Below, one piece after another: positions 52,398-63,296 of a DNA stretch of 64,000 bases (its first letter is position 1; each line of letters opens with the position of its first letter). The stretch comes from an alpha proteobacterium IMCC14465 (GTDB taxonomy: Bacteria > Pseudomonadota > Alphaproteobacteria > RS24). The stretch lies in the NCBI GenBank assembly GCA_000293845.2, contig ALYF01000003.1:682001-746000 (forward strand), given 5' to 3'. Made by a program: the position numbers and the translations under genes. Below the pieces are notes generated by a model. That model made no database searches. It saw only the letters and a list, made by a program, of their open reading frames with translations, and was not told the origin of the DNA.

Positions 52398-52544
52398 GAC
52401 ATGTCCCTTTCTTAACCCGTTATTGTCAAAAACCCGACAGCGCTTAAAGAGCTGCTCATTTGGTCTTTAACTTGCATAAACAGCGAAAAAGCGTGCTTTA
52501 AGGATTAAAATTCAGCTTTTTCGCGCGTCAGCACATAGGGGTAA

Positions 52545-52561
52545 GGCAAAATGCATGCCAA
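52545..52561 (-). promoter_or_regulatory. Sigma-54 promoter for the flhA-flhF-flhG-fliA row
   Basis: On the minus strand: TTGGCATGCATTTTGCC, with GG and GC exactly ten bases apart, a near-perfect -24/-12 element. Transcription would start near 52534 and reach flhA ATG 52397 after a leader of about 137 nt. Confidence 0.8.
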
Positions 52562-52662
52562 TCAGTTATCCGCCTTAATATTTCAGGCTTATTTGGCGGA
52601 AAAGTGCAAAAAATAAGGTTTATTGTGTCCGCGCCTTATAATTCAGCAAGGCAAAGGGGGCC

Positions 52663-52679
52663 TTGGCATGAAAGATGCA
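52663..52679 (+). promoter_or_regulatory. Sigma-54 promoter for the flgP-flgT row
   Basis: TTGGCATGAAAGATGCA, with GG-N10-GC spacing and the -24 half matching the consensus. The start would be near 52690, with flgP ATG at 52718. It is divergent to the flhA promoter 100 bp away. Confidence 0.78.
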
Positions 52680-52717: not shown

Positions 52718-53230
52718 ATGACACGACGTTTTACAAAGTTTTTTGCCGCAATCGCCATTTCCTGTGTGGTCGCAGCATGCGGATATGAGCTTCAGGTGGT
52801 TGATACCGCCGCTAATGCCATTAATCCAGAAGATAGCAAAGCTTTTCAGCAGGAGCTTAAATCTTATTCCATGGTTTCCGGCGGTAACGTCCAAACCATC
52901 CCAACGCTCACAGCGGTTGGATATGCCGTTGTATCAACACAGCCCGGTAAATCCGATGCCCAGCGCCGTCTTATGGCTATTCGTGCCGCCCGTATGGCTG
53001 CCATTCGCGAATTGGCCGAGCAAATTCATGGTCTGCAAGTAGACAGTAACACTACGGTTGTCGATCTGATGGTTCAGAATGACACATTTAGAGGTGTTGT
53101 AACCGGCATTATTCGCGGTGCGCGCACTGTTCGGATTAATCCGACCGGTTCAGATACTTATGAGATTGTTCTGGAAATCGACAGAGATGTCATTGCCCGC
53201 CTGATACAGGCTGCCGATAGATATACCTGA
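52718..53230 (+). CDS. flgP: Flagellar outer-membrane lipoprotein FlgP (LPP20 family)
   Basis: FlgP is an outer-membrane-linked basal-disk or ring protein of polar flagella in Vibrio and Campylobacter. 170 residues: a lipoprotein signal (MTRRFTKFFAAIAISCVVAAC, lipobox VAAC near residue 20) and an LPP20-like domain (AQRRLMAIRAARMAAIRELAEQIHGL, TVVDLM, FRGVVTGIIRGAR). ATG 52718 follows GGAG; an upstream in-frame start at 52604 would lie before the sigma-54 promoter and hide the signal. It leads the flgT-LysM-flgA row. Confidence 0.82.
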   Translation: MTRRFTKFFAAIAISCVVAACGYELQVVDTAANAINPEDSKAFQQELKSYSMVSGGNVQTIPTLTAVGYAVVSTQPGKSDAQRRLMAIRAARMAAIRELAEQIHGLQVDSNTTVVDLMVQNDTFRGVVTGIIRGARTVRINPTGSDTYEIVLEIDRDVIARLIQAADRYT

Positions 53231-56872: not shown

Positions 56873-57214
56873 TTACATTTCAAATTCTTGTTTGCTGCAT
56901 CTCAGCGTGTAGAATAAATCATCGGTCATGGCCTGTACTTTTGATGTTTTCAAATTCACCATAATTTTTAAATCTTGATCGCCGGCTTCCAGTATATCGT
57001 CTGAAAGTGACACGGGGTTAATCTCCCACATTCCGTCCTTATCTGAAATCACGACACGTTTATTAACTGACCGGACATAGAGTTCGATGGTTTTAATGCC
57101 CAGTCGGTTATCCATGCAGGTGAAACTTATATGCTTGAATCTGGAAAGACCGTCACAGGATGAAACGAAAAACCCTGCCAAGAGAAGAAAGATGAGGTGA
57201 GGCTTACTCACGCG
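56873..57214 (-). CDS. Small lipoprotein downstream of the acidic protein
   Basis: 113 residues from ATG 57214: lipoprotein signal (MRVSKPHLIFLLLAGFFVSSC) with lipobox VSSC near residue 21, and a mature part with two more Cys (ISFTCMD, LRCSKQEF). Unknown. It overlaps the preceding acidic-protein gene by 11 bp, so the two make one short leftward row within the flagellar region. An upstream frame (57277) would read into the other gene. Confidence 0.6.
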   Translation of the reverse strand, partial: RVSKPHLIFLLLAGFFVSSCDGLSRFKHISFTCMDNRLGIKTIELYVRSVNKRVVISDKDGMWEINPVSLSDDILEAGDQDLKIMVNLKTSKVQAMTDDLFYTLRCSKQEFEM

Positions 57215-57866
57215 CATCTTCTTCAGCATCGGAGACATCTTCATTCTCTTCCTCACTCTCATCAGCTTCACTCTCATCAGCTTCAGTTTCTACTTCTTCA
57301 GTTTCTACTTCTTCACTTTCTACTTCTTCAGTTTCTTCAACTTCAGAGTCTTCTTCACCTGTTTCATCTTCTTCAGGGTCAACCGGCCTTTCAATGATTT
57401 CAGCCTGACCGGCCTCCAGCAAGCGTTCAGCATCAATTAATTTAACATCAATTTGAATGCCAGCCGGGAAGCGGACGCCATTCACTTCGCAATCCTCAAT
57501 AATTCTCAGTCGTTTCCATTCCATGTCACCGTCAAATGCGTCGCTGTCATCGTCTTCTGAAAAGTCATCTTCATAATCAAAACTCTCATCTTCGAGAGCA
57601 GCCATTTCTTCTTCTAAGAGTAAGGCCTGATTTTCTGATAATTCTGAAATAAACCGTCTGAGCAAAACAAGCCGCGCCGCGAGTGCAGCGAGACGCGTTT
57701 CTTCATTTTTCTCATTAGCGAGAAACTCTCTAATTTTCGACCGAATGTCTTTAAGAGACTCGCCTTCTAGCTTTGTGACGATTTTATCGCGGATTTCGAT
57801 GATTTCAGGCGAAAGCAACGCCATTTTCGACTGGTTATCGGATGACTCAAAATCAAACTTGTCCAT
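57204..57866 (-). CDS. Acidic repeat protein of the flagellar region
   Basis: 220 residues, unknown. A helical head (IIEIRDKIVTKLEGESLKDI, LAALAARLVLLRRFISELS), a central domain with GVRFPAGIQIDVKLIDAERLLEAG, and a C-terminal tail of about 60 residues made almost only of Glu, Asp, Ser, Thr and Val in VETEEVE/DESEADE repeats, from a repeated TCTACTTCTTCAGTT-type DNA unit. Very acidic. ATG 57866 has GAGGAG upstream. A sigma-54 promoter facing it (57900-57916) overlaps the flgB promoter. Confidence 0.65.
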   Translation of the reverse strand: MDKFDFESSDNQSKMALLSPEIIEIRDKIVTKLEGESLKDIRSKIREFLANEKNEETRLAALAARLVLLRRFISELSENQALLLEEEMAALEDESFDYEDDFSEDDDSDAFDGDMEWKRLRIIEDCEVNGVRFPAGIQIDVKLIDAERLLEAGQAEIIERPVDPEEDETGEEDSEVEETEEVESEEVETEEVETEADESEADESEEENEDVSDAEEDARE

Positions 57867-57886
57867 TTTTCACTCCTCAACGGCAC

Positions 57887-57903
57887 TTGGCATAGGAATT
57901 GCA
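57887..57903 (+). promoter_or_regulatory. Sigma-54 promoter for flgBCDEF
   Basis: TTGGCATAGGAATTGCA, GG (57889-57890) and GC (57901-57902) ten bases apart, matching the full consensus. Start near 57913; flgB ATG 57967. The leader contains a GCATG-TTTT-CATGC hairpin (57931-57944). Its -12 element is shared with an opposing promoter. Confidence 0.82.
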
Positions 57904-57916
57904 ATTTTCAGACCAA
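57900..57916 (-). promoter_or_regulatory. Opposing sigma-54 promoter for the acidic-protein gene
   Basis: Minus strand: TTGGTCTGAAAATTGCA, again GG-N10-GC. Start near 57889, 23 nt before ATG 57866. It runs toward the flgB promoter and uses the same ATTGCAAT palindrome as its -12 element. Confidence 0.75.
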
Positions 57917-57966
57917 CGGACCTTGTAATTGCATGTTTTCATGCCCTAGTGAGAAACGTAACGGAA

Positions 57967-58353
57967 ATGGACGATATTAAAGAATATCTCAATATTTACG
58001 CCTCAGCCTTATCTCTGCGCGGACGCCGCAATGAGATGATTGCGTCGAATATTGCCAATGCCGCAACACCTCATTTTAAAGCGCGGGACATAAACTTTGA
58101 CACAGAAATCCGCAAACATTTACGCGACGGGCCGCTTGAAACGACACATGGTGATCATATCCCGTTTGCTGCCCCATATTCAACAGGGCAAGCGCTTTAT
58201 CGTCAGCCACTGAACCCTTCCTTGGACGGCAATACAGTTGAGCTATCGATTGAACAGCTAGAGTTCTCCGAAAACGCGACACGCTATCAAACCACACTGA
58301 ATTTTCTTGATGGGCGCATTAAAGGCCTCATGTCCGCGATTAGGGGTGAATAA
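57967..58353 (+). CDS. flgB: Flagellar proximal rod protein FlgB
   Basis: First rod protein, contacting the MS ring. 128 residues, family length. N-terminal LNIYASALSLRGRRNEMIASNIANAATPHFKAR, C-terminal coiled coil (EQLEFSENATRYQTTLNFL). ATG 57967 follows ACGGAA. It overlaps flgC by one base (ATAATGA form), the flgBC pair being always made together. Confidence 0.92.
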   Translation: MDDIKEYLNIYASALSLRGRRNEMIASNIANAATPHFKARDINFDTEIRKHLRDGPLETTHGDHIPFAAPYSTGQALYRQPLNPSLDGNTVELSIEQLEFSENATRYQTTLNFLDGRIKGLMSAIRGE

Positions 58354-58769
58354 TGAGTGATTTGAAAAACATATTCGATATTTCCGGTCGCGCCATGTCA
58401 GCTCAGCTTGTGCGCTTGAACACGATTGCCAGTAATCTGGCCAATGCCGGTTCCATGGAAGGCTCTCGCGAGGCAGCCTATAAAGCGATACGCCCGGTTT
58501 TTGAAACTGAATATTCAGAAAATTTCAAACGTAACGGTGTTGCCAGCACGAGCGTGACAGAAATTGTCCAGCTCGAGCGCGAGCCGGAGGCCATTTATAT
58601 GCCATCGCATCCGAAATCGGATGAAAACGGCTTTGTTTATGTCGCCGCCGTTTCTCAAGAAGAAGAAATGGTCGACATGATGGAAGCCAATCGTCAGTAC
58701 CAGAATAATGTTGAAGTCATCACGACCATCAAGGCCTTGATGATGCAAACGGTCAATTTAGGAAAGTAA
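58353..58769 (+). CDS. flgC: Flagellar proximal rod protein FlgC
   Basis: 138 residues, family length. N-terminal IFDISGRAMSAQLVRLNTIASNLANAGSM, C-terminal MVDMMEANRQYQNNVEVITTIKALM. Forms the proximal rod with FlgB and FlgF. Overlaps the flgB stop and precedes flgD by 11 bp. Confidence 0.93.
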   Translation: MSDLKNIFDISGRAMSAQLVRLNTIASNLANAGSMEGSREAAYKAIRPVFETEYSENFKRNGVASTSVTEIVQLEREPEAIYMPSHPKSDENGFVYVAAVSQEEEMVDMMEANRQYQNNVEVITTIKALMMQTVNLGK

Positions 58770-58780
58770 GCAGGTAAATC

Positions 58781-59470
58781 ATGAGTACAATTGACACCAA
58801 CCAGTCTCTTAATGCCATTCTCGATAAATTGGGTGTGAACAAACAAGAGGAAGCGACAACCAAGCGCAAGGACCAGCTCGGTCAGGCCGATTTTCTGAAA
58901 CTGATGACAACTCAGCTTCAAAATCAAGATCCTTTTGCGCCAATGGATAATGCGGACTTTATTGCTCAAATGGCTCAATTCTCGACTGTGACAGGCATCA
59001 CCGATATGGGTGAAACGCTGAAGGGCATGTCTGACCAGTTACAAGAGTTCAGAATTGCGACAGCCTCCAACTTGCTTGGTCATTCTGTTCTTGTTCCCGG
59101 TAATCTGGCCCGTCCGGATGAAAATGGTGAAATCCACGGTGTGGTTGATCTGCCGTCAAGCGCGTCAATGTCCAATATTCGCTTTACGAATGAGCAGGGG
59201 GAAATCCTGCACCAAGTTGATATGGGCGCACAGTCGCGCGGTCTTGTCGGTTTTAGCTGGATGGATATTCCAATTGAGATTCTTGAATCCGGCGACGTTA
59301 TTCGTGTTGAAGCTTATGCGGATACAGGAAGTGGGCTTGAGGCTGTCTCGCCTTCAGTCTTTGCAGATGTATTGGCAGCTACCACCGGCAACGATATTGA
59401 TGGTGTCCAGTTGGATGTCCGTGATTACGGAACCATCAGCGCTGCTGAAGTAATTAAGTTTCGTAAGTAA
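58781..59470 (+). CDS. flgD: Flagellar hook cap protein FlgD
   Basis: FlgD caps the growing hook and is later replaced. 229 residues: [20 protein letters not shown] (N-terminal conserved block, about 28-50), a middle domain of FlgD Ig-like type ([19 protein letters not shown]), and a C-terminal tail. It lies 28 bp before flgE. Normal length. Confidence 0.92.
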
Positions 59471-59498: not shown

Positions 59499-62400
59499 AT
59501 GTCGTTTTATACAGCTCTGACAGGTTTGAACGGTTCACAGGCAGATATTTCTGCCACTTCCAACAATATCGCAAACGTCGGTACGACGGGCTTTAAACGA
59601 AGCCGTGCGGAATTTGGTGATATTTTCGCGACATCTCCATTGCAGAACGCGTCTTCATCGATTGGTTCAGGTACAATTCTTAAAGGGATTAAGCAGCAGT
59701 TTACACAGGGTAACATTGCTTCATCTTTGAACGCGCTTGACCTTGCGATTTCGGGACAGGGCTTCTTCTCATTGAAGCCATCCTTGACCTCAGCACAAAC
59801 CGTTTACACGCGTAATGGTTCACTGAACGTTAACAATGACCGTTACGTTGTTGATTCAGCGGGTCAGTTCTTGCTTGTTTATCCGGTTAACCAGGATGGT
59901 TCTGTTACTGCGAAAGACTTGACCAGTGCCGTGCCGTTGCAGCTTCCGGTGACATCGGGTGATCCGCAAGCGACGGCTAATATTTCTCTTGGGGTGAACT
60001 TGCCTGCTGATGCGGAGGTTGTCACAGAAAAAGCACAATTTGCGGACGGGTATAATTTTAATCCGGATAACCCGGATACTTTCACAAATTCAACTTCAAT
60101 CACCATCTTTGATGATTTGGGTAACCCTACCATTGCGACGATTTACTTTATCAAAACACAGGCCACAACTGCGGATGATCCAACCAACAAATACGATACA
60201 CGTTTGGTTATTGGCGACACAATTATTAATCCTGACCTCGTACCGGCGGTTGATGATGCGTCCAACCAGATTTTCATCGATAGATTTGGCGCGCAAACCA
60301 CAACTGTCCCGGATGATAACTACTTCTTGGAGGGTAAAGGTTCTCCGCTTTATAAGCTCGATGATTTGCAACAACAAGTAGACAGTCAACCGGCTAAAAT
60401 TCAGAGTGAAACAACAGCCTTTGACTTTGGTGATGAGGGTGACAAGCTCGTTGAGATTGTAACGGACCCTATGCAGTTCAAAGCCACGCGTGAAGCGGGT
60501 TCTGCCAATGATGTATATTGGGGTAAAGACTTCCTATTATTGAATGTTGATGATGGTGACCAGCCGGTCAGTATCGATATTCGCCCGGGCACTTACAATG
60601 CGGCCGACCTCGCCGAAGAGGTGGAGCGCGCCATTAACACAGCCTATGGTGATGATAAGAAAATTCAAATTGTTCAAAATGTTGATAACGAGATTAATAT
60701 TAATCTGAGCCGCTTGAATTCTGACGGTACAACATCAAGTTTGAAAGAGCTTGCTGGCAATGCGATTACGGTTGATTTGCTGTCTTCGTCTTATGTCACG
60801 GATATCGAGAATATTGACCTCTCCGGCGCTTCGCCTGACTTTACGAAAGAGCAGTTTCTGGCGCATACACAAGCGCGTCTGAATACGGCACTGAACCAGT
60901 TTATTGTTTCCACCGGTGACACCATTAACACAACAAACCAAAGTGCGTTTAACTTTGGTAATACGGGTCAGTTATTTGGTCGCTCGGAAGGTGCGCAAAT
61001 TACGGATATTCTGGAGCAAACTCAGATATTCAATCTGACGCATAACACACTTGATAGCTATACCGACGCCGCAAACCCCGGTGCTGTCACGGCAAATGGT
61101 AAATTTCTTGTTTATTCATTCTACGGCGAACGTCCGTCGCTCAATGTTTATGATGATAAAAAAGTGGTCAATGCTGATGGCGACGGCAACACAATTAAAT
61201 ATGATGCCACGCAAAACACATTGACTGTTAATCTTGCAGATACATCTGGCTTTACAGCGGGTGAGACAATTCAGATTGCAGGTGAATTCACCGAAGCGAA
61301 TGCCTCATTCCTAAATGGTCGGACATTCCAGATTTCAAATGTCACTGCAAACACATCCATTACAATTAATACAACCGGATTGGGTCTGCCTGATACGGGC
61401 TTTAACATTACCAGCACGACAGCTCATGTGTTGAGTGATGAATCCTCGACTGTAGAAGCCTTCTTTGAAGGTGCGGATAATGTATTTGAAGGTGCGCTGG
61501 ATAATTTCTCGAGCAAAAAGATTATTGTGCGTGAAACGGCTGCGGCCAAGCACAAATATACCAATACGGAAGTTGCGACTGTAACCGGCGCAGCTGGTAT
61601 TATCAACGTTGGCACTGAGGTTCTCACCCTTGAGGATGATACGGGTGCCGTCATTGATACGCTGGAGCAACTTGGTTTTGAGACGGCGCTTAACGCAACC
61701 GCAATGACCACGACATCAGAATGGGTAGATGAAAAAAATCCACCCCTGACGGTCTCTTATGATGAAATCAACCAAAGATTGCAGTTTCAGGTCGACCGGA
61801 CAATTCTGGGTACAGGTACTGAGCCAAACTTTAACTCTTTTGAAATTTACGGCGCTGAAAATGCGGATGTCTCCAACAATCTGGGTATCCCCGCCGAAGA
61901 AGATGCGTCCACAGTTCTTATCAGAGGTGGTGAGGTTCTCACGGCTGAAACATTGGTTGCCGATGGTGAAGAAATTCAGCTCAACGATAAGCGTTATGGT
62001 ATTCAAGTTGAATATAATAGTGACACGAAAACCTTTACTTTCGGCAGTGGTAGCACGGGTGAGAATATCGCCGCTGATGGTGCGCTTGGGGTAACTGAAG
62101 AGCAAAAAGCGTCAAATATTCAGATTGGCCGTTATGCGATTTCCGACTCGGATGGCAGTATCGTCAACAACACATTTGATCTCACGCAACGTACTATTGG
62201 TGCAGGTGATAACCAGCTCATGGGTGTTGGTTCGACGAAAACGGATATTATCTTCTCCAATGGCCGTGGCCTGGCATCACTGCCAGCTATTGCGACCAGT
62301 ACGACTGCGCAGGAAAATCTTTCTGAAGTTTTCACGCTATCCAGTCAGATTGGTGAAAATATCTTCAACGTGTCAGTGGATGGTATCAGCGGTATCATTA

Positions 62401-63296
62401 CTGTTCCCGGCGGTTCCTATGTTGGTTCGACCCTTGCAACCGCTTTGGAAGAGAGAATTAACCAGATTCAAGACTCTTCAACCGGTCAAACAGTTGGCGG
62501 TGTGACGGTGTCTTACAATACAGATACGAATAACTTTACCTTCACGACGGGTACACGCGGTAACACCTCCACGATTAAAGTGAATGGTAGTGCCAAGCTG
62601 GGTCTTGATGATGTACCTTTGGGTGTGGGGTCTATCCCTCAAATTTTCAATCTTGTTCAAGCAACAAATGCTGATGGTGTGGCGCTATATGTTAACGCCG
62701 AAGGTGAGGTTGTTGAGTCGCCACCTGCTAATTTGGTAGAAGGTTACTTCCCGCTTTACATTGATGAGGGTGAGTTAACATTTGATAAAACAGGTACGCT
62801 CGTAAGCCCGAAAAACACGGTTCATTATGAGAAACAGGAAGAGGGTGTCTCTATCTCACTGGATATTGACTTCTCAGCCTCGACCCAGTTTGCCCAGCCT
62901 TTCTCGGTTGTTGCTGTGGATCAGGATGGTTTTACCTCCGGTCGTTTGGATGGTCTGGAGATTGATGCTTCGGGTACAATTCGTGCGAACTATACGAATG
63001 GTTTGAACAATCCGCTGGGTAAAATCGTTGTTGCCAACTTTAACAACCAAAACGGTTTGAAGCAGATTGGTAACGCGACCTATGTTGAAACTGCGGTTTC
63101 GGGTTCACCTCAGGTCGGTGAGGCGGGTGCTGAGGGTTTTGGTAACATTCTCTCAGGTTCGCTGGAACGCTCAAATGTGGACATCACAGAAGAGCTGGTT
63201 AATTTGATTACGGCCCAGCGTAACTTCCAAGCGTCAGCAAAAGCGATTGAAACAACGACAACGCTGACACAGTCCATCATTAACATCCGGATGTAA
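59499..63296 (+). CDS. flgE: Giant flagellar hook protein FlgE
   Basis: 1265 residues, about three times the usual 400. N-terminal MSFYTALTGLNGSQADISAT then SNNIANVGTTGFKRSRAEFG, and C-terminal SNVDITEELVNLITAQRNFQASAKAIETT, are typical and should form the hook core. The extra about 900 residues form outer domains with internal repeats: GIQVEYNSDTKTFTFGSGSTG (about 833) and GVTVSYNTDTNNFTFTTGTRG (about 1000) are paralogous, and other IN-motif-like strand pairs recur. ATG 59499 has GGAG upstream. Hook in a large sheath or thick flagellum is possible. The reading frame is unbroken. Confidence 0.92.
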   Translation: MSFYTALTGLNGSQADISATSNNIANVGTTGFKRSRAEFGDIFATSPLQNASSSIGSGTILKGIKQQFTQGNIASSLNALDLAISGQGFFSLKPSLTSAQTVYTRNGSLNVNNDRYVVDSAGQFLLVYPVNQDGSVTAKDLTSAVPLQLPVTSGDPQATANISLGVNLPADAEVVTEKAQFADGYNFNPDNPDTFTNSTSITIFDDLGNPTIATIYFIKTQATTADDPTNKYDTRLVIGDTIINPDLVPAVDDASNQIFIDRFGAQTTTVPDDNYFLEGKGSPLYKLDDLQQQVDSQPAKIQSETTAFDFGDEGDKLVEIVTDPMQFKATREAGSANDVYWGKDFLLLNVDDGDQPVSIDIRPGTYNAADLAEEVERAINTAYGDDKKIQIVQNVDNEININLSRLNSDGTTSSLKELAGNAITVDLLSSSYVTDIENIDLSGASPDFTKEQFLAHTQARLNTALNQFIVSTGDTINTTNQSAFNFGNTGQLFGRSEGAQITDILEQTQIFNLTHNTLDSYTDAANPGAVTANGKFLVYSFYGERPSLNVYDDKKVVNADGDGNTIKYDATQNTLTVNLADTSGFTAGETIQIAGEFTEANASFLNGRTFQISNVTANTSITINTTGLGLPDTGFNITSTTAHVLSDESSTVEAFFEGADNVFEGALDNFSSKKIIVRETAAAKHKYTNTEVATVTGAAGIINVGTEVLTLEDDTGAVIDTLEQLGFETALNATAMTTTSEWVDEKNPPLTVSYDEINQRLQFQVDRTILGTGTEPNFNSFEIYGAENADVSNNLGIPAEEDASTVLIRGGEVLTAETLVADGEEIQLNDKRYGIQVEYNSDTKTFTFGSGSTGENIAADGALGVTEEQKASNIQIGRYAISDSDGSIVNNTFDLTQRTIGAGDNQLMGVGSTKTDIIFSNGRGLASLPAIATSTTAQENLSEVFTLSSQIGENIFNVSVDGISGIITVPGGSYVGSTLATALEERINQIQDSSTGQTVGGVTVSYNTDTNNFTFTTGTRGNTSTIKVNGSAKLGLDDVPLGVGSIPQIFNLVQATNADGVALYVNAEGEVVESPPANLVEGYFPLYIDEGELTFDKTGTLVSPKNTVHYEKQEEGVSISLDIDFSASTQFAQPFSVVAVDQDGFTSGRLDGLEIDASGTIRANYTNGLNNPLGKIVVANFNNQNGLKQIGNATYVETAVSGSPQVGEAGAEGFGNILSGSLERSNVDITEELVNLITAQRNFQASAKAIETTTTLTQSIINIRM

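Follow-up and report, generated by a model that had tools for sequence, protein, structure and literature searches.

A 30-bp sequence between the flagellar operon flgBCDEF and a divergently oriented gene for an acidic protein is, to judge from its bases, very probably a single bidirectional sigma-54 promoter that serves both. It lies in the alphaproteobacterium IMCC14465, within the stretch of 64,000 nucleotides analysed here (the window), among the following features.

57204 to 57866, minus strand: divergent gene, coding for a 220-aa acidic protein; ATG at 57866, Shine-Dalgarno sequence GAGGAG within 57867-57889
57887 to 57903, plus strand: predicted sigma-54 promoter of flgBCDEF, TTGGCATAGGAATTGCA, which would start transcription at about 57914 with a leader of about 53 nt
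57900 to 57916, minus strand: predicted sigma-54 promoter of the divergent gene, TTGGTCTGAAAATTGCA, which would start transcription at about 57889 with a leader of about 23 nt
57901 to 57902, both strands: common GC, the -12 of both promoters, within AATTGCAATT (57897-57906)
57967 to 58353, plus strand: flgB, ATG at 57967
58353 to 58769, plus strand: flgC, downstream of flgB
58781 to 59470, plus strand: flgD, downstream of flgC
59499 to 63296, plus strand: flgE, downstream of flgD; unusually long, for a hook protein of 1265 aa
63311 onwards, plus strand: flgF, downstream of flgE

Read directly from the window, positions 57887-57916 are TTGG CATAGGAATT GC AATTTTCAGA CCAA, that is, TTGG-N10-GC-N10-CCAA. 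On the plus strand TTGG (57887-57890) is followed by ten bases, GC (57901-57902) and an A, which includes the features TTGGCAT and TTGCA. The minus strand reads in the same way, with TTGG (57916-57913), ten bases, GC (57902-57901) and an A, or TTGG TCTGAAAATT GC A. The sigma-54 spacing GG-N10-GC is present on both strands, accompanied on the flgB side by TGGC at -24 and TTGC at -12. The GC in AATTGCAATT is self-complementary and the two 17-mers overlap by four bases (57900-57903); here a preliminary description of the site, which had proposed a pair of sigma-54 promoters in opposite directions that use one palindromic -12, proves exact to the base. Transcription from sigma-54 promoters usually starts about 12 nt from the C of the -12. 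With this offset the predicted starts fall about 25 bp apart, each at the -24 of the opposite promoter. The two promoters face each other, as had been said, but their predicted starts lie outside one another, so that the transcripts would diverge and not overlap. The site ends 50 bases before flgB and stands 20 bases before the ATG of the divergent gene, whose short predicted leader includes GAGGAG, a plausible ribosome site.

On the evidence of this genome alone, such an arrangement does not clearly exceed chance. In pattern searches (not a weight-matrix scan), TTGG-N10-GC-N10-CCAA was found at five genomic sites, against one for a reversed control pattern, and among those five only 57887-57916 has TTGC on both strands. 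A stricter pattern, TTGGCAY-N5-TTGCA-N9-CCAA, gave 12 matches in 385 alphaproteobacterial genomes and one in the control; nine of those 12 are at precisely this location, with flgB on one side and the same divergent gene on the other. The others, two flagellin promoters and one orphan, were set aside: they read TTGCAT, which leaves no TTGC on the opposite strand, and they have no evident comparable divergent partner gene. Across 398 genomes of the phylum, a scan for the architecture gave eight matches and its control one, little beyond chance. Leaving the window aside, most of these fall within coding sequence or are one-sided, and a wider use of the architecture was not retained. One of them, a single case in another alphaproteobacterium (L216), has TGGCAC-N5-TTGCAA-N8-CCA upstream of a dctA-like gene.

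The comparison among relatives is what carries the argument. Loci were gathered by homology to FlgC or to the divergent protein, without using the CCA half; in each of them the sigma-54 box before flgB was located and the bases at a fixed distance beyond it were read off. The two-sided set comprises 73 loci in 27 genera, made up of families f1, f9, f109, f174 and f176 (three orders) and the contig AH-326-L19, whose family is not known (f- and g- names are labels of the analysis tool). In all 73, TTGG-N10-GC-N10-CCA(A/G) lies in the intergenic region that separates flgB from the same divergent gene, with CCAA in 64 and CCAG in nine. CCA and GCAA, the source of the minus-strand TTGC, are invariant throughout, while several letters of the spacers vary, and the divergent side always has GG-N10-GC spacing with TTGC at its -12. 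The flgB half, TTGGCA[TC]-N5-TTGC, is found in all 106 loci when the 33 of family f175 are added; in genome G130 it reads CTGGCAT. The comparison that the preliminary description had called for thus upholds its two opposed promoters with a common -12. The divergent ATG in the two-sided loci lies 7-34 bases beyond the -24 of flgB, mostly 16-23, some ATG choices being automatic and maybe off by a few codons. With this ATG and its Shine-Dalgarno sequence so near the -24 of flgB, two-sided relatives have no room for a separate promoter. An inverted repeat, GCATG-TTTT-CATGC, lies in the flgB leader at window positions 57931-57944, with one loop base different in G001. As a candidate hairpin or operator it was rejected: this repeat is found in this genus and GTCCC-AGC-GGGAC in g3, and neither is kept across genera.

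There is a weak point, namely that the minus-strand -24 is off consensus at -22 in nearly all relatives. It reads (T/C)TGG followed nearly always by T and rarely by A, and the C of TGGC occurs only in genus g290. C at -22 is a consensus preference in sigma-54 promoters, with no absolute requirement. Still, TTGGT in place of TTGGC lends itself to a different explanation, in which only the flgB promoter is real, CCAA is the site of another regulator (a flagellar activator or repressor, for example) at the flgB start, and the divergent gene relies on a sigma-70 promoter further to the right. A regulator touching the flgB start would also fix the spacing to the common GC. We nevertheless hold this to be unlikely. 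The closeness of the divergent ATG and its Shine-Dalgarno sequence means that any promoter for that gene must overlap the flgB promoter, and no conserved sigma-70 -10 facing the divergent gene is consistently placed in the two-sided group. Furthermore, GCAA on the plus strand, which gives the minus promoter its inner TTGC, is kept and relaxed together with CCA.

Family f175 speaks most directly against that explanation. All 33 of its loci, several of them recorded as SAR116 single cells, retain both flgB promoter elements, TTGGCA and TTGC; none has CCA, and GCAA persists in 20. With the flgB half intact where CCA is gone, the flgB promoter does not include the CCA half, which behaves instead as a predicted promoter of the divergent gene. 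Its fate tracks the layout of that gene: where the divergent ATG can be placed in f175, it is 30-31 bases (g281, g284) or 60-89 bases (g283) away. In alphaproteobacteria without the divergent gene, the sigma-54 promoters of flgB have no CCA at this place (three cases, a small sample). In the FlgB+FlgC tree f175 forms one clade nested within the two-sided families (support 100/98), which argues that the minus half was lost there and not gained elsewhere. The two-sided or one-sided label changes twice over this tree, the second change being G130, an uncertain long-branch genome. Most simply, then, the two-sided state would be the older one and the minus half would have been lost once, in f175.

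What replaced it may be visible as well. In f175 genera g281, g282 and g284, TATAAT or TATGAT occurs at one fixed place of the flgB spacer, facing the divergent gene, in ten of ten loci. These -10-like sequences fit replacement by a sigma-70 promoter, in genomes that are AT-rich and with no -35 established. The loci bearing them in the spacer include L122-L135 and L190. It had been proposed at the outset that two real promoters would be put in doubt if the -12 half of one were lost in related genomes while its gene was still expressed, and this comes about in part, since f175 keeps the divergent gene and has lost its -24 and often its TTGC. But the ATG has shifted there and other -10-like sequences have appeared, so that the situation reads as a derived promoter replacement.

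How would such a site work? The -12 TTGCAA is strand-symmetric and a -24 GG lies ten bases out on each side, for which reason the sigma-54 holoenzyme would fit either way, binding in one orientation or the other, one at a time. In one orientation, remodelling by an enhancer-binding ATPase would lead to transcription of the rod and hook operon flgBCDEF; in the opposite orientation the divergent gene would be transcribed. With TTGGT instead of TTGGC at its -24, the divergent half is predicted to be the weaker, and its protein would be made in smaller amounts and coupled to the step of flagellum assembly at which rod and hook are formed. With rather less assurance than for the promoter itself, we think it probable that the site is an ancient, selected bidirectional sigma-54 promoter, in which one palindrome feeds the rod and hook operon together with an unnamed flagellum-linked protein, in a ratio set by competition and by unequal -24 boxes, and that it was dismantled in one lineage by separation of the genes or by replacing the promoter of one side. 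If so, an unnamed protein family would become linked to the assembly of the flagellar rod and hook, and the two-sided families set against one-sided f175 would make a clean natural experiment on the keeping and losing of such promoters.

The size of the site bears on a further possibility. That 30 bp should not accommodate two holoenzymes at once, as the preliminary description already suggested, is a sound inference. The same description saw in it a two-way switch, expressing flgBCDEF or the divergent gene with the direction chosen by alternative activators. Exclusion does favour this, as does the presence near the flagellar genes of two activators, only one of which has a DNA-binding domain. 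Exclusion does not by itself entail a switch, however, which would require two opposed inputs; no sign of these can be seen. Both halves would be under a single sigma factor and probably a single activator, which makes co-expression at a fixed ratio the simpler reading. Competition, for its part, would count only where occupancy is high. Sigma-54 closed complexes can be stable, and competition may therefore be more plausible here than at bidirectional promoters of the sigma-70 type. At the latter, in Escherichia coli, basal activity is too low for competition, although strong activation one way could repress the other, and competition requires substantially increased one-way transcription (PMC12825309). 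We regard a true switch, as it had been claimed, as quite improbable and find no support for it. About as improbable is a non-productive complex, in which the reverse-bound sigma-54 polymerase would leave no transcript, its closed complex holding flgB off until the activator acts. Bound sigma-54 holoenzyme has been described as repressive in both E. coli and Yersinia (PMC4551910, PMC7657599), and the weaker -24 would be in keeping with a poised complex. Yet the site always stands beside a close divergent gene whose Shine-Dalgarno sequence is where it should be, and where the start of that gene has shifted away CCA is missing.

The genome has what such a promoter would need, encoding both sigma-54 and enhancer-binding activators. 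Its 1.9 Mb hold two rpoN genes (L001 and L002, with open frames of 513 and 559 aa), one of them near the flagellar region, and five full sigma-54 activators, two of these in the flagellar region. The genes for these two, L005 and L006, are adjacent and divergent, beyond the window (G000:C3:775.9-777.7 kb). L005 codes for an AAA+ domain plus a Fis-type helix-turn-helix (HTH) with no receiver, L006 for an N-terminal region and an AAA+ domain with no HTH; they are possibly a split or paired activator.

Bidirectional promoters of the sigma-70 type were recognised because their -10 is nearly symmetric. In work by Warman, Grainger and colleagues, one pseudo-symmetric core element serves both strands, with polymerase in either orientation, exclusive occupancy and divergent starts at or beside the common element, usually 18 bp apart (PMC10268837, PMC12825309). 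The term 'sigma54' is absent from both papers. The site described here would resemble these promoters in having one core element for both strands, exclusive occupancy, binding in either orientation and divergent starts. It differs in that the symmetry is in the -12 TTGCAA and both -24 GGs and not in a -10, the two-sided group having no consistent -10-like sequence; about 25 bp, not 18, would separate its starts, and ATP-driven activation would be needed. If the reading is right, the bidirectional principle extends to the activator-dependent polymerase, whose opening needs ATP, so that both directions could be gated by one protein.

Divergent sigma-54 promoters as such are familiar, as in Caulobacter flaN/flbG. 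To our knowledge, the cores of the promoters at zraP/zraSR, the hydrogenase-3 cluster and flaN/flbG do not overlap. At zraP/zraSR the promoters are divergent and share one activator, ZraR (PMC4987338); those of the hydrogenase-3 cluster are divergent as well. Like these three, the present site has two predicted sigma-54 promoters for divergent genes; unlike them, its cores overlap. At flgB2/fliI2 of Rhodobacter sphaeroides, too, very little intergenic sequence separates flgB from a divergent gene (there a flagellar one), but its divergent promoters are controlled by CtrA at two independent sites, in an architecture that is unconserved in relatives (PMC6180460), whereas the present site is predicted to be of the sigma-54 type, with a common core, and is conserved. 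A sigma-54 promoter with a common -12 was not found described in the literature searched, many subscription papers being outside that search.

As for the divergent protein, its AlphaFold model (mean pLDDT 75) displays three helices, a small beta domain, an acidic tail and disordered stretches. Pfam and NCBIfam gave no family above cut-off, leaving the family without a name, and a weak match to DUF7210 on the beta domain; no sequence relatives were found in the PDB, and a structural search with the model returned no significant fold match. On these grounds no functional name could be assigned. The acidic C-terminal tail is very variable in length among homologues and is absent in part of f175.

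The window has more sigma-54-like sites at 52460-52679, between flhA and a divergent gene starting near 52719.

52460 to 52475, plus strand: sigma-54-like site, TTGGTCTTTAACTTGC
52546 to 52561, minus strand: sigma-54-like site, TTGGCATGCATTTTGC
near 52663 to 52679, plus strand: sigma-54-like site, TTGGCATGAAAGATGCA

One more gene adjoins the divergent one.

56873 to 57277, minus strand: gene for a small putative lipoprotein, overlapping the 3' end of the divergent gene

Its lipobox-like VSSC was seen by eye, and it is possibly in the same transcript as the divergent gene.
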